Position numbers and translations under genes: made by a program. This document shows positions 38,590 to 42,954 of a stretch of 64,000 nt of DNA, piece by piece. This DNA is from Sporosarcina koreensis (GTDB lineage Bacteria; Bacillota; Bacilli; Bacillales_A; Planococcaceae), in assembly GCF_000826145.2 (NCBI RefSeq), contig NZ_LN651336.1:291501-355500 (forward strand). Reading direction: 5' to 3'. How positions within the stretch are numbered: the stretch's first letter is position 1; each line of letters opens with the position of its first letter. A model generated the notes under the pieces. It saw only the letters and a list, made by a program, of their open reading frames with translations, was not told the DNA's origin and ran no database searches.

Positions 38590-39681
38590 CTACTTATATA
38601 CAACTTCAAACCGCTCGCAGACGACAGGGATATCCTCTTGGAACTCCATCCCTTCGGCAATGAACTCCCGTGTGAAGAAGTCTTCGTGGACATCCCGCCA
38701 GTACCCGAGGGACCGGTCGCCTTCCCCCTCGAGATAGGCATGCTCCGCGGGCACTTCATTGAACGGAAGGACATCGACCGCAACGCATCGGATGACGGCG
38801 ACAGCCGAACCGCTTCCGTCAAGGACGATGTCGTACTGGCCGACTTTCGGGAGCGGCTCATCCCCGAGTTCATACATCTTATAGTTGGAGGCGGTCGCCG
38901 TCTTGGTTCCGTCAGCGACCAGCGCCGCGAGCGTATCGGCCATCTCTTCAGAGTCGCCGAATCCCCAGGCCGCGGCGGATTCCGGTGCCTCAGGGTGCAA
39001 CTCGCGGAATTCGTTCCAGAGCTGCTCAGGTGTTTTCATTGTCATGTCACTACTCCCTTTCCTGTTGAACAGGTGCGTCTGTATTCCCTCTATGACCGTC
39101 CTGTAATACTCTTCGGTATGCGGAACGAAATCCGCGCGCGTGATCGTCTTCCGGAAGGGATGCTGCCGCCCCTCGGGACCTCTTGTGACGCCGGCAGTGT
39201 CGATGGCATCCCGGCAGCCGCTCCATAGGTCGGCAAAATCGTCCAGATCCACCCGGCTGATGCCGGCGACTTCTTCAGGCTGCAGTTCAAACTCTGCGGG
39301 TTCACGGTCCGTCACATACAGGAAGACGTGGGCGAATTCGTTGTCGTCGATCAGTTCCGTGCGGATGCAGTCGCGGATGACGCCTAGCGGATGAAGTTCA
39401 TCGAATGAAACCGGCACGCCGAGCTCTTCCTCGATTTCCCGCACGCCGTCATGGACGGTTTCGGTTGCAAGCAGATGACCTGCGGCAGTGATGTCGAACA
39501 GGCCCGGGTAATCTTCCTTATCCGGGCTGCGCTGCTGCAGATAGACGGAACCGCCATCCGGGGACACGAACCAGCACTGGAATGTTTCGTGCCACAGTCC
39601 GTCGCGGTGGATGTCATCGCGCAACGCGGTGCCGACCGGCTGCCGCTGTTCATCGAAAATCGTTAGCCGTTCGGCTGTCAT
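38590..39681 (-). CDS. NUDIX hydrolase fused to an ASCH domain protein
   Basis: 363 residues from ATG 39681, with AGGAGGGAGAGATTGCC. Residues about 1-185 are an isopentenyl-diphosphate-isomerase-like NUDIX (YfcD type): Nudix box GHLLATETVHDGVREIEEEL. Residues about 215-363 form a complete ASCH/YqfB-like domain (LVADGTKTATAS, GDRSLGYWRDVHEDFF). The two are normally separate genes. The junction DNA contains GGAAAGGGAGTAGTGAC followed by ATGACAATG, a working-looking ribosome site inside the frame, so an independent ASCH protein may also be made. Fusion by loss of a stop codon is inferred. Confidence 0.85.
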   Translation of the reverse strand: MTAERLTIFDEQRQPVGTALRDDIHRDGLWHETFQCWFVSPDGGSVYLQQRSPDKEDYPGLFDITAAGHLLATETVHDGVREIEEELGVPVSFDELHPLGVIRDCIRTELIDDNEFAHVFLYVTDREPAEFELQPEEVAGISRVDLDDFADLWSGCRDAIDTAGVTRGPEGRQHPFRKTITRADFVPHTEEYYRTVIEGIQTHLFNRKGSSDMTMKTPEQLWNEFRELHPEAPESAAAWGFGDSEEMADTLAALVADGTKTATASNYKMYELGDEPLPKVGQYDIVLDGSGSAVAVIRCVAVDVLPFNEVPAEHAYLEGEGDRSLGYWRDVHEDFFTREFIAEGMEFQEDIPVVCERFEVVYK

Positions 39682-39817
39682 GGCAATCTCTCCCTCCTGC
39701 GGTTTCCTCCTATTGTAACAGACCGGCCGAAGCGAGTGACTTGATATCCCGTCCTGCGTCCTGAATACTTGATGAAACTGAGTGATTGAACAAGTATCCG
39801 GAAAGGGGCTGGAGCGG

Positions 39818-40057
39818 ATGGGACCGGAGATCACTGTCTATACGTCACGCACTTGCCCGGTCTGCGGGATGGTGAAGCAGTTCCTCGACGATAACGGATT
39901 CACTTACACTGAAGTACCTGTCGACCTGAACCCGCTGGCGATGCTGCGGCTGATCGCCAGGCGCGGCCGGTTCACTGTGCCGCAGACAGAGGTGAACGGC
40001 GTCTGGATCGGCGGATTCGACCCTGTGCGGATGCTGAAAGTGATGAATACGGACTGA
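39818..40057 (+). CDS. Glutaredoxin family protein
   Basis: 79 residues from ATG 39818 behind AAAGGGG. Thioredoxin fold with CPVC at about 13-16 as the redox pair, cis-Pro motif TVPQTEVNG (TVP) and GGFD near the end, all standard for glutaredoxin/NrdH-like proteins. Reduces disulfides in the cytoplasm, probably via bacillithiol or thioredoxin reductase. Monocistronic with a strong shared terminator. Confidence 0.92.
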   Translation: MGPEITVYTSRTCPVCGMVKQFLDDNGFTYTEVPVDLNPLAMLRLIARRGRFTVPQTEVNGVWIGGFDPVRMLKVMNTD

Positions 40058-40819: not shown

Positions 40820-41125
40820 ATGTATATCGTCAATTCGACATTCAACGTACCCGCCGGGAAAGCGGAGGAAGTGATCCGGATCTACAGCGGCCGCTCGAAG
40901 CGGGTCGACCGGGCAGCAGGCTTCCTCTCTTTCCAACTGCTGCAGAACCAGAAACGCCCCGGCGAACTCGTCGTCCATATGGAATGGGACACGCGGGAGC
41001 ACTATCTGGCCTGGGCGCGGAGCGATGAATTCAAAGAGATCCACGAACTCGAGAAGAAATACCCGGATCAGGAACTTGCGGGGATCATCCCGAAAGTGGC
41101 GCAATATAAGGTGGTGGCGGACTGA
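40820..41125 (+). CDS. Antibiotic-biosynthesis-monooxygenase (ABM/HmoA-like) protein
   Basis: 101 residues from ATG 40820 with GCAAAGGAGCCTGCC. Ferredoxin-like ABM domain: NSTFNVPAGKAEEVIRIYSG, FLSFQLLQNQ, VHMEWDTREHYLAWARS, the layout of the Bacillus heme-degrading monooxygenases HmoA/HmoB and IsdG. A heme-ligand His is not certain. First gene of a four-gene operon; the next gene starts at its stop codon (TGATG). Confidence 0.8.
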   Translation: MYIVNSTFNVPAGKAEEVIRIYSGRSKRVDRAAGFLSFQLLQNQKRPGELVVHMEWDTREHYLAWARSDEFKEIHELEKKYPDQELAGIIPKVAQYKVVAD

Positions 41126-41481
41126 TGGAGCAGGAGGCAAAAGACCGGGTTGTCGATGAAGTCGTCTGGCAGATCTATGATGCCCACCCGTGGCTGACCG
41201 AAAAATTCGGCGATAACGGACGGATGCGGACTGCTGAGGATAACTACCATCATCTGAACCACCTGGAGACGGCGTTCCAGATGAGCGACAGCAAGTTTTT
41301 CACGGATTATACAAAATGGCTCGATCAGGTGCTGACAAGCCGGAATGTCGGCACGGACCTGATCATCGATAATTTCGAACGGCTGCTCGCCGTCCTGCCC
41401 GGCGAGGTGGATATTGAGAGGCAATCCGCGTACACGGATTATCTGAAGAAGGCACTTGCCATCTTGCAGCCGAATGACTGA
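41125..41481 (+). CDS. Helical protein of the B12/STAS operon, possibly RsbR-N-like
   Basis: 118 residues, ATG overlapping the previous stop. Predicted mostly helical: VVDEVVWQIYDAHPWLTEKF, AEDNYHHLNHLETAFQMSDS, FTDYTKWLDQVLTSRN and LIIDNFERLLAVL. The Y..WL..VL..R and NFERL pattern resembles the non-heme-globin N-terminal sensor modules of RsbR proteins or the helical caps of B12 photoreceptors. Here it is a separate protein beside a B12-binding and a PAS/STAS protein. Assignment is inference from pattern and operon. Confidence 0.65.
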   Translation: MEQEAKDRVVDEVVWQIYDAHPWLTEKFGDNGRMRTAEDNYHHLNHLETAFQMSDSKFFTDYTKWLDQVLTSRNVGTDLIIDNFERLLAVLPGEVDIERQSAYTDYLKKALAILQPND

Positions 41482-41503
41482 AGACCGATTGAGGAGGGAT
41501 CGA

Positions 41504-42166
41504 ATGACCGAATACGCCAAACAGCTGACCGACCTGCTGCTGAGGGGAGATGAGCAGGCGGCCATTTCCTATATAGACGGCGTGCTCGCCGGGAATGACC
41601 GGCTTACGCTGTACGAGGATCTCCTGACACCGGCAATGATCCGTATCGGTGAACTGTGGGAACAGAATGAGATCACCGTGGCGGACGAACACCTGGCGAC
41701 TGCGGTTTGTGACTATGTGATCTCCGATTATGAGTACCGTTCGTCTTCGGACGACGCGCCGGATCGGAAGAAAGTGATGCTGTTCGGAGTCGAAGGTGAA
41801 GAGCACTATATCGGTTTGAAGATGGCGGCGGCCGTGTTCCAGGAATTCGGCTGGCGTGTCCGGTATCTCGGCCCGAATTTGCCGCTCCGCCATGCTGAGA
41901 CCGCTGTCAATGCCTGGCAGCCCGACGTTGTCGCCATGTCCGCGGCATTGTCCTATCGGCTGCCGATCCTGCGGAAATCTGTCCAGGTACTCGCGAATAC
42001 GGACTGCCGGCCGTCCATCGTGATCGGCGGGCGGATGGCGCCGCATGCATCCTTCACAGAGGAAGCGGCGCCCGGCCAGGTGCTCGTCATGCCGAATCTG
42101 CGGGAACTGCACGAATGGCTGGCAGCTGAGGGAAAAGGAGCGAGCGTGAAACATGTCCTATCCTAA
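41504..42166 (+). CDS. Cobalamin-binding protein with CarH/LitR-type W-x9-EH motif
   Basis: 220 residues from ATG 41504 behind GAGGAGGGATCG. Residues 1-80 form the four-helix cap, with W52 and E62-H63 spaced as W-x9-EH (LWEQNEITVADEHLAT), the signature of adenosylcobalamin photoreceptors CarH/LitR. Residues 90-215 are the Rossmann B12 domain with E99-x-H101-x-x-G104 (the DxHxxG motif with Glu for Asp; His is the lower cobalt ligand) and a later GGRMAPH loop. There is no MerR DNA-binding domain, so the output must pass through a partner, most likely the overlapping PAS/STAS protein. Confidence 0.85.
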   Translation: MTEYAKQLTDLLLRGDEQAAISYIDGVLAGNDRLTLYEDLLTPAMIRIGELWEQNEITVADEHLATAVCDYVISDYEYRSSSDDAPDRKKVMLFGVEGEEHYIGLKMAAAVFQEFGWRVRYLGPNLPLRHAETAVNAWQPDVVAMSAALSYRLPILRKSVQVLANTDCRPSIVIGGRMAPHASFTEEAAPGQVLVMPNLRELHEWLAAEGKGASVKHVLS

Positions 42167-42941
42167 TCCCCTGATGCCGCTTCCGATGTACACGATCGAT
42201 ACGGATCTCCAGATCGTCCGGGTCAATCAGGCGGCCGCGACAATGCTCGCCGCCGGCTCGAGCATCCTGGACGTCATCGAGTCCGAAAGCCGCCGGAAGG
42301 TCGAGCGGCGGATCCGGGAATCGGACACAGTCGAAGCGCTCGAAGTCAATGTCCTGTCCCCCTCCGGTTCCGTCCTGCTTGCTGATCTGTATGCTTCCTG
42401 GACGGAGGAGCCTGCCTGCGAGGTGGTCATCGTCAAAAAAGACCAGGCGATCCTGAAAGTGAGCGAACAGCTGACGCGGCTGCGCACCCGCCTGACGGAG
42501 ACCGACTTCCAGCTGCTCGAGGCGAAGGAATCGGCGGAAACCCTGCTGCAGGAAAACATCAAGCTGTCCTCCCCGTTCATCGAGCTGACGGATACGGTCG
42601 CTGTCGTGCCGATTTTTGGCGATCTGGATGAGGAAAAATCTTCCGCCATCGCACGCGGGCTCACCGAACGGTCTGCGAAATCGGGCGTGCAGACGATCAT
42701 CCTCGACTTCACCGCGGTCGGGCGGATTGAGCAGGATGGCTTATATGGATTCGAAAAACTGATCGGCGTATTGGAACTGCTCGGCTTTTCCCTGATTGTG
42801 ACCGGCCTGAACCCGCTTCACGTGAAAGTCTGGAATCAGCTGGACTTCACCGCCGAGGTGCGGTTCGTGAAAACATTGAAGCGGGCCATTGCCGAGCTCA
42901 CGCAAAAGAAAACACAGTCCATCCGAAAACCAGCCTTGTGA
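42153..42941 (+). CDS. PAS-STAS protein, RsbR/stressosome type
   Basis: 262 residues; ATG 42153 overlaps the B12 gene by 14 bases. N-terminus is PAS-like (MYTIDTDLQIVRVNQAAATM), then a coiled-coil linker about 95-140 (LTETDFQLLEAKESAETLLQ) and a C-terminal STAS domain with the RsbR-type start SSPFIELTDTVAVVPIFGDL and IILDFTAVGRIEQDG, where the Thr matches an RsbT-type phosphorylation site. Such proteins form the stressosome that releases RsbT and turns on SigB. Translation coupling with a B12 photoreceptor-like protein suggests light- or cobalamin-dependent stress signalling. Confidence 0.85.
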   Translation: MSYPNPLMPLPMYTIDTDLQIVRVNQAAATMLAAGSSILDVIESESRRKVERRIRESDTVEALEVNVLSPSGSVLLADLYASWTEEPACEVVIVKKDQAILKVSEQLTRLRTRLTETDFQLLEAKESAETLLQENIKLSSPFIELTDTVAVVPIFGDLDEEKSSAIARGLTERSAKSGVQTIILDFTAVGRIEQDGLYGFEKLIGVLELLGFSLIVTGLNPLHVKVWNQLDFTAEVRFVKTLKRAIAELTQKKTQSIRKPAL

Positions 42942-42954
42942 GGGCTGGTTTTTT
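42928..42954 (+). terminator. Terminator of the B12/STAS operon
   Basis: AACCAGCC, loop with the stop codon, GGCTGGTT then TTTT. Confidence 0.85.

Follow-up and report, generated by a model that had tools for sequence, protein, structure and literature searches.

What might a cobalamin-binding protein without a DNA-binding domain sense, and where could its signal go, when its gene lies directly before that of a relative of the stressosome proteins RsbR and YtvA? This question is raised by a locus of Sporosarcina koreensis, in which four open reading frames (ORFs) occupy positions 40820-42941, all on the same strand, of the stretch of 64,000 nucleotides analysed here (contig NZ_LN651336.1, positions 291,501 to 355,500; hereafter the window). 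A preliminary description had proposed a light or cobalamin input to the stressosome, encoded by a four-gene operon with overlapping starts. The operon layout stands in part: genes 1 and 2 overlap by 1 base and genes 3 and 4 by 14, while genes 2 and 3 are separated by 22 bases. The proposed input is partly supported by a CarH-type domain, a STAS neighbor, and an rsb-sigB gene run in the genome, but the description had missed the probable bilin-globin half of the sensor. Our analysis makes it fairly probable that the locus encodes a light sensor of the photocobilin type whose two halves are separate proteins and which acts in trans on the SigB stressosome.

The four genes belong together. Searching with two residue patterns, placed on E62-H63 and E99-x-H101 of gene 3, gave 417 matches, and our locus set consists of the best 80 of 286 relatives, drawn from Sporosarcina, Planococcus, Halobacillus, Pontibacillus, Thalassobacillus, Marinococcus, Virgibacillus, and other genera. 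Of the 80 loci, 78 have all four genes together, with order and strand shared (counting L094, which has only a 77-aa fragment of the ABM gene); given this shared order and strand among the nearest loci, the cassette is conserved beyond chance. Within the genus sample, the B12 gene is found at 69% identity or more in 7 of 61 genomes, the window's own included.

One revision concerns gene 2, which had been described as RsbR-N-like. A single-sequence search placed three photocobilins and phycocyanin at the top, only at E values of 0.77-1.5, and no Pfam family exceeded its cut-off (LPD22 and DUF2153 fell below theirs; the Phycobilisome model touched 2 of 8 family members, at best with 0.083). A profile of eight orthologues reached the photocobilin SasPcob (8J2X/8J2W) at E 0.0012, phycocyanin alpha at 0.0064, and AbPcob at 0.038, with the next match in the Protein Data Bank (PDB) at 0.33. 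The AlphaFold2 model (mean predicted local distance difference test [pLDDT] score, 94.8) has five helices, and the 50 Foldseek matches listed, of 868 with E up to 10, are all phycobiliproteins or the biliverdin-binding smURFP, with template modeling scores of 0.68-0.80. SasPcob residues were mapped by profile alignment, with chain numbering shifted by 6 and anchored on W61, E71, and H72 (PMC10979010). Asp270 and Trp296 of SasPcob, which are located at the biliverdin (BV) (PMC10979010), align with D39 and W65 of gene 2. Each of these is invariant in 78/78 loci, and both positions are also kept in 12 of 12 rows in which the globin is fused to a cobalamin-binding domain (CBD). Since gene 2 encodes no cysteine, a bilin, if bound, would be held non-covalently, which fits SasPcob. 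By sequence and modeled fold, then, gene 2 is a phycobiliprotein-type globin, kin to the phycobiliproteins, and it is probably the bilin-globin half of a photocobilin and a predicted bilin binder.

The RsbR-N identity was rejected: no RsbR-N Pfam model matched, and the 50 matches shown for each of two fold comparisons (Foldseek and VIA-align) are phycobiliproteins or bilin-binding relatives, although absence of RsbR-N from 50 matches does not by itself exclude it. As a separate observation, the site that corresponds to the bilin-attachment cysteine of phycocyanin (motif CxED) is Thr in the window photoglobin. Of 33 stand-alone photoglobins from a sample of 398 genomes of the class, the window's among the 33, Cys stands at this site in 18 (L138, L175, L177, L180, L182, L193-L195, L197, L199-L201, L203-L205, and L207-L209), leaving out L149 (202 aa, Ala) and two fragments; it is present in 4 of 78 cassette loci (L129, L131, L135, and L136) and in none of 12 fused rows from 11 genomes. 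Lineages with this cysteine may attach a bilin covalently.

Gene 3 would supply the cobalamin half. Pfam assigns B12-binding_2 (2.7e-16) and B12-binding (6.3e-14), and this 220-aa protein has no DNA-binding domain over the Pfam cut-off, that is, no MerR domain of the CarH type, as the preliminary description had said. The residues it had named are also in place: W52 and E62-H63 (W-x9-EH), and E99-x-H101-x-x-G104 as the ExHxxG motif. The closest solved sequences are SasPcob (8J2W, 3e-19) and CtMerR (8JBS, 2e-17), followed by 1Y80 and CarH (2e-11). G49, W52, E62, H63, and H101 are kept in 80/80 loci, so that the loss of W-x9-EH in orthologues, named beforehand as an outcome that would speak against the idea, was not seen. 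Because the search patterns cover E62-H63 and E99-x-H101, the conservation of these residues is partly by construction; W52, as well as D39 and W65 of gene 2 and the ABM residues discussed below, lies outside them. For comparison, 15 of 15 MetH-type control domains, classed by frame length (1145-1233 aa) rather than by family search, carry F, V, and L where gene 3 has W, E, and H. In the same control set, W and EH are both found in L011, L012, L016, and L017 (frames near 300 aa), which is what CarH-type proteins should have; in L025, EH is present and the Trp is absent.

All four elements of the signature given in PMC11796333 are present in gene 3. The residue after the Trp is Glu53 (E in 68 and Q in 12 of the 80 loci) and not the His of CarH; the corresponding residue of TtCarH, H132, is the basis of its bis-His light state (PMC11796333). 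Therefore, the light state can be expected to resemble that of SasPcob and not that of CarH (PMC11796333). Judged from these residues, gene 3 is a CarH-type, light-type cobalamin domain without a helix-turn-helix (HTH). The genome has two adenosyltransferase-family (cobalamin) genes. It also holds a further B12-binding match (G000:C2:366967-367422; 28% to P0003, open frame of 367 aa), possibly a CarH/LitR-type regulator.

The candidate output is gene 4. Its STAS domain is clear in Pfam (2.1e-9), and every PAS model stays below cut-off. The AlphaFold2 model (pLDDT 86.3) matches full-length YtvA best (5.8e-13) and then the Listeria stressosome (4.4e-7). The NCBIfam model YtvA_fam covers only residues 123-246, the STAS half, below its cut-off. 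The protein has the layout of an RsbR co-antagonist, namely an N-terminal sensor domain, a helix, and a C-terminal STAS domain. A LOV motif was not seen by eye in gene 4, where C89 is the sole Cys of residues 1-95. From sequence and model, gene 4 appears to be a YtvA/RsbR relative without the LOV motif. Elsewhere in the genome, a gene run that we named by eye reads rsbR, S, T, U, V, W, sigB, rsbX; its STAS genes and SigB were confirmed by searches. YtvA itself is known solely as a positive factor and apparently forms no stressosome with RsbS when alone (PMC3944199).

The upstream ABM gene is strictly paired with the globin. Of the 398 genomes of the class, 34 have a match to an ABM profile (E up to 1e-15) and 58 a match to that of the globin (E up to 1e-6), and 34/34 of the ABM matches lie on the same strand and within 90 bases upstream of a globin match (largest gap, 89). 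Fused-type globins, as judged by open-frame length (357-391 aa), number 22 and have an ABM gene beside them in 2 cases, compared with 32 of 36 for the shorter frames, where the exceptions are G070, G569, and the fragments G510 and G643. Fusion of globin and B12 domains in one chain is seen in P0005, and profiles confirm it in 10 of the 15 loci of one set as well as in L176 and L181 (L181 and L143 are one genome). In a sample of 398 genomes of the phylum, the globin was found in 14.

The ABM assignment of gene 1 agrees with the earlier description (Pfam ABM 9e-18, 64.7 bits versus a cut-off of 23.1); 13 solved sequences match with E values of 0.01 or lower. Among NCBIfam models, HmuQ scores highest (49.3 bits versus a cut-off of 130), with IsdG-type models next. 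IsdG uses an Asn-Trp-His catalytic triad in which Asn7 is critical (PMC6018153). In the IsdI alignment, Trp65 and His75 of gene 1 match the triad, and the catalytic Asn is replaced by Ser6. The replacement is consistent: Ser6 is found in 77 of 78 loci (one gap), His75 in 78/78, and Trp65 in 77/78, and a second set of 31 rows, in which the window is counted twice and genomes are shared with the 80 loci, gives 31, 31, and 30, respectively. Of the three other ABM matches in the genome, the comparison covered L054 and L055, both of which keep Asn-Trp-His, but not L056. Since Ser6 is kept while these paralogues have Asn-Trp-His, gene 1 represents, by sequence, a distinct ABM subfamily.

We hypothesize that the gene 1 protein makes or tailors the bilin; given Ser in place of the catalytic Asn of IsdG, we treat bilin making as a lead. 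The canonical heme oxygenase family has no match in the genome itself or in 30/30 genomes with the B12 gene, a negative that is partly background, since B. subtilis has no heme oxygenase match either. A further-reaching version is tentative and, in our judgment, somewhat doubtful: that the ABM protein stands for a new, photoreceptor-dedicated heme-cleaving class (Ser-Trp-His), whose non-heme-oxygenase bilin serves a stand-alone globin and a B12 switch on the stressosome. The bilin could then be, for example, of staphylobilin or formyl type, acting as antenna or second chromophore, and an IsdG-type bilin would gain a chromophore role.

Once gene 2 is taken as the bilin-globin half, a B12/bilin sensor becomes probable and gene 1 gains a possible meaning. 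From the parts described above, we infer cofactor binding, complex formation, photochemistry, stressosome incorporation, output sign, and ABM function as follows. In the dark, the B12 protein would bind adenosylcobalamin and dimerize like CarH and SasPcob, with the photoglobin docked on it and the bilin beside the corrin. Green light, through B12, or red light, through the bilin, would cleave the Co-C bond; with the adenosyl group gone, the E62-H63 helix would shift and the dimer would come apart. The signal would pass to the PAS-coil-STAS protein, seated among the RsbR proteins of the stressosome, which would change the release of RsbT and hence SigB. The ABM protein would make, modify, or load the bilin.

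Could the B12 protein do this alone? The CBD might sense green light and drive the STAS protein, with the globin as a structural subunit whose fold is kept and whose bilin use is lost. Two loci, L123 and L133, are what one would expect in that case, as they keep B12 and STAS genes without an ABM gene or a whole photoglobin, and AbDPcob binds BV weakly, with about 20% BV occupancy (PMC10979010). Yet the BV-contact Asp, which is His in AbPcob, and Trp65 are invariant wherever the cassette has the globin, and ABM and globin genes are absent together in both loci. Globin traces there amount to a 23-residue tail in L133 (61% to L118, E 3e-5) and 11 residues at E 0.47 in L123. Since both genes are missing, the sequences suggest that they were lost jointly. 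We consider a sensor using B12 only unlikely.

Less likely still is a sensor of bilin or of heme and redox state rather than light, in which ABM and globin would report heme breakdown, the STAS protein would relay a redox or nutrient signal, and B12 would be structural or sense cobalamin status. The kinship of the ABM protein to heme-degrading enzymes would suit such a role, as would the two paralogues with Asn-Trp-His elsewhere in the genome, but the CBD has the set of adenosyl-contact residues (W/EH) by which light-responsive CBDs can be told from decoys (PMC11796333). That the B12 protein is a methyl carrier like MtaC or MtbC, serving a corrinoid methyltransferase and unrelated to light, is very improbable. 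NCBIfam does give weak matches to MtgC (43.8 bits, cut-off 370) and MtaC (38.7, cut-off 420), and the CarH model is likewise far below its cut-off (62.6 of 400); however, the nearest solved sequences are a photocobilin and CtMerR ahead of 1Y80 and CarH, the conserved cassette is made up of genes 1-4, and W52 and E62-H63 are found in all 80 loci.

Several observations weigh against a light sensor coupled to the stressosome, in addition to the Ser6 replacement in the ABM protein. For the globin, the best Foldseek E value is 0.0029, none of the listed matches being at 0.001, and the VIA-align result (Z up to 14.3; root-mean-square deviation, 2.3 over 115 residues) must be set against a Z of 13 that helical folds can reach by chance; therefore, we place the weight on the agreement of profile, fold, and residues. 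For the B12 protein, the glycine of GxxH (G98) is Gly in only 35 of 80 loci and the proline of GxxxP is kept in 69 of 80. H130, which aligns with SasPcob His137, is His in only 53 of 80, and it is also His in both photoglobin-less loci. For gene 4, the positions of RsbR T171 and T205, which we take to be the phosphosite threonines, align with E160 and Q194 in the window, and Thr is outside the five commonest residues at either site in the 80 loci, as far as these top five go. Both RsbR phosphosite threonines are located in the STAS domain (PMC3944199).

The link to SigB is also subject to such points. In 28 of 30 genomes, SigB exceeds its cut-off, and its presence is probably background for these bacteria. 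A SigB-type promoter upstream of the cassette was considered and rejected: the upstream regions of 79 loci are not enriched, as a score of at least 10 occurs in 3 of them, the window's among these, versus 8.6 expected from Markov-resampled controls. SigA-type scores of at least 9 (51 observed versus 41.1 expected) were not used as evidence. Furthermore, the loci come from related species and do not count as independent events, and some genomes are shared between the 80-locus set and the class sample.

Finally, the wiring varies. Six loci (L161, L175, L177, L180, L207, and L208) have the ABM-globin pair without a B12 gene within the 1.5 kb viewed. In family f6 (L212:4091-7720 and L217:4154-7801), a 1200-aa CheB-CheR-PAS-histidine kinase comes after the ABM-photoglobin pair, and at L216:3402-6589, an ABM gene and a fused photoglobin-CBD gene precede a hybrid histidine kinase that contains receiver and Hpt domains. 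Other relatives have no nearby STAS or no nearby B12 gene. These variable outputs weaken STAS as the sole output; they also suit a portable input module. Two further arrangements were observed: at L214:4359-5168 (G757), the ABM, globin, and B12 genes have upstream of them a gene for another kind of STAS protein (42 bits for STAS, no PAS match), and at L215:2938-3693 (G510), a globin fragment and a STAS gene lie on opposite strands, which looks like a decayed or rearranged cassette.

Features of the cassette, with window coordinates and the basis of each assignment
Feature	Coordinates	Strand	Basis
Gene 1, ABM-fold monooxygenase, 101 aa	40820-41125	+	Pfam ABM; HmuQ best NCBIfam model; IsdI alignment; conservation
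Gene 2, predicted bilin-binding photoglobin, stand-alone, 118 aa, five helices	41125-41481	+	Profile, AlphaFold2, fold comparison, residues
Gene 3, stand-alone cobalamin-binding protein, 220 aa, B12-binding_2 + B12-binding	41504-42166	+	Pfam; closest solved sequences; signature
Gene 4, RsbR/YtvA relative with PAS, coiled coil, and STAS, 262 aa	42153-42941	+	Pfam STAS; AlphaFold2; fold comparison
Terminator-like inverted repeat CCAGCC/GGCTGG, then T run, overlapping the end of the STAS gene	42930-42954	+	By eye

Outside the cassette, a single ORF of the window (38590-39834, minus strand) joins a NUDIX domain and an ASCH domain. Its counterpart at the related locus L046 is a 211-aa frame whose start resembles the NUDIX part.

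If a split light sensor does act on the stressosome, non-photosynthetic Gram-positive bacteria would have a two-color (B12 and bilin) light input to the general stress response, beside the LOV input of YtvA. It would also be evidence that the domains of a photocobilin are able to act in trans and to be rewired, as the CheB/CheR-type kinases and the hybrid histidine kinase of relatives illustrate, and small separate genes might prove handy for optogenetics. According to a review, the destiny and cellular role of bilins from bacterial heme breakdown are largely unknown (PMC6018153); the strict pairing of an ABM subfamily with a globin makes this question of bilin fate testable.

How does the locus compare with known systems? 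A photoglobin family, in which a non-heme globin is linked to B12-binding and signaling domains, was reportedly described by Schneider in 2022 (CSBJ, Computational and Structural Biotechnology Journal). Gene 1 resembles IsdG, HmuQ, and HmoB in its ABM fold and its Trp and His positions and differs from them in having Ser for the catalytic Asn. Gene 3 shares CBD domains and adenosyl-contact residues with CarH/LitR but has no HTH, and with Glu53 for the TtCarH His, no bis-His light state is expected. Like YtvA, gene 4 combines a PAS-fold sensor, a helix, and STAS, and in both, the T171 position is Glu and the T205 position is a residue other than Thr; unlike this LOV-STAS protein, gene 4 has no LOV motif, and light input would have to come via other proteins.

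The nearest relatives are the photocobilins SasPcob and AbDPcob (PDB 8J2W, 8J2X, and 8J2Y), which likewise combine a CBD and a bilin-type globin and share the W/EH/H motif and the BV-contact Asp and Trp. Their two-pigment photochemistry is published, and STAS, SpoIIE, and PP2C-type proteins were named by the authors as potential partners of SasPcob (PMC10979010). Here, in contrast, CBD and globin are in separate ORFs, the operon adds ABM and PAS-STAS genes, and the hosts are Bacillus relatives rather than Saccharothrix or Acidimicrobiaceae. In Myxococcales, BBAG-2 globins, which bind biliverdin and lack the CXRD cysteine, are encoded apart from B12 genes, as in our cassette, with a bilin reductase or heme oxygenase gene alongside; the word STAS does not occur in that paper (PMC10151467). 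The single mention of B12-binding in PMC8508746 is a BLUF+B12 protein. Our literature search, which did not include the 2022 photoglobin paper, where such an operon may be shown, found no publication on an operon of globin, B12, ABM, and STAS genes. The earlier claim that no system of such make-up had been described is too strong, as photocobilins (PMC10979010), photoglobins, and the Myxococcales pairs (PMC10151467) are published. Altogether, with photocobilins (2024) and photoglobins (2022) already known, what looks new at this locus is the split, STAS-linked, ABM-bearing form.

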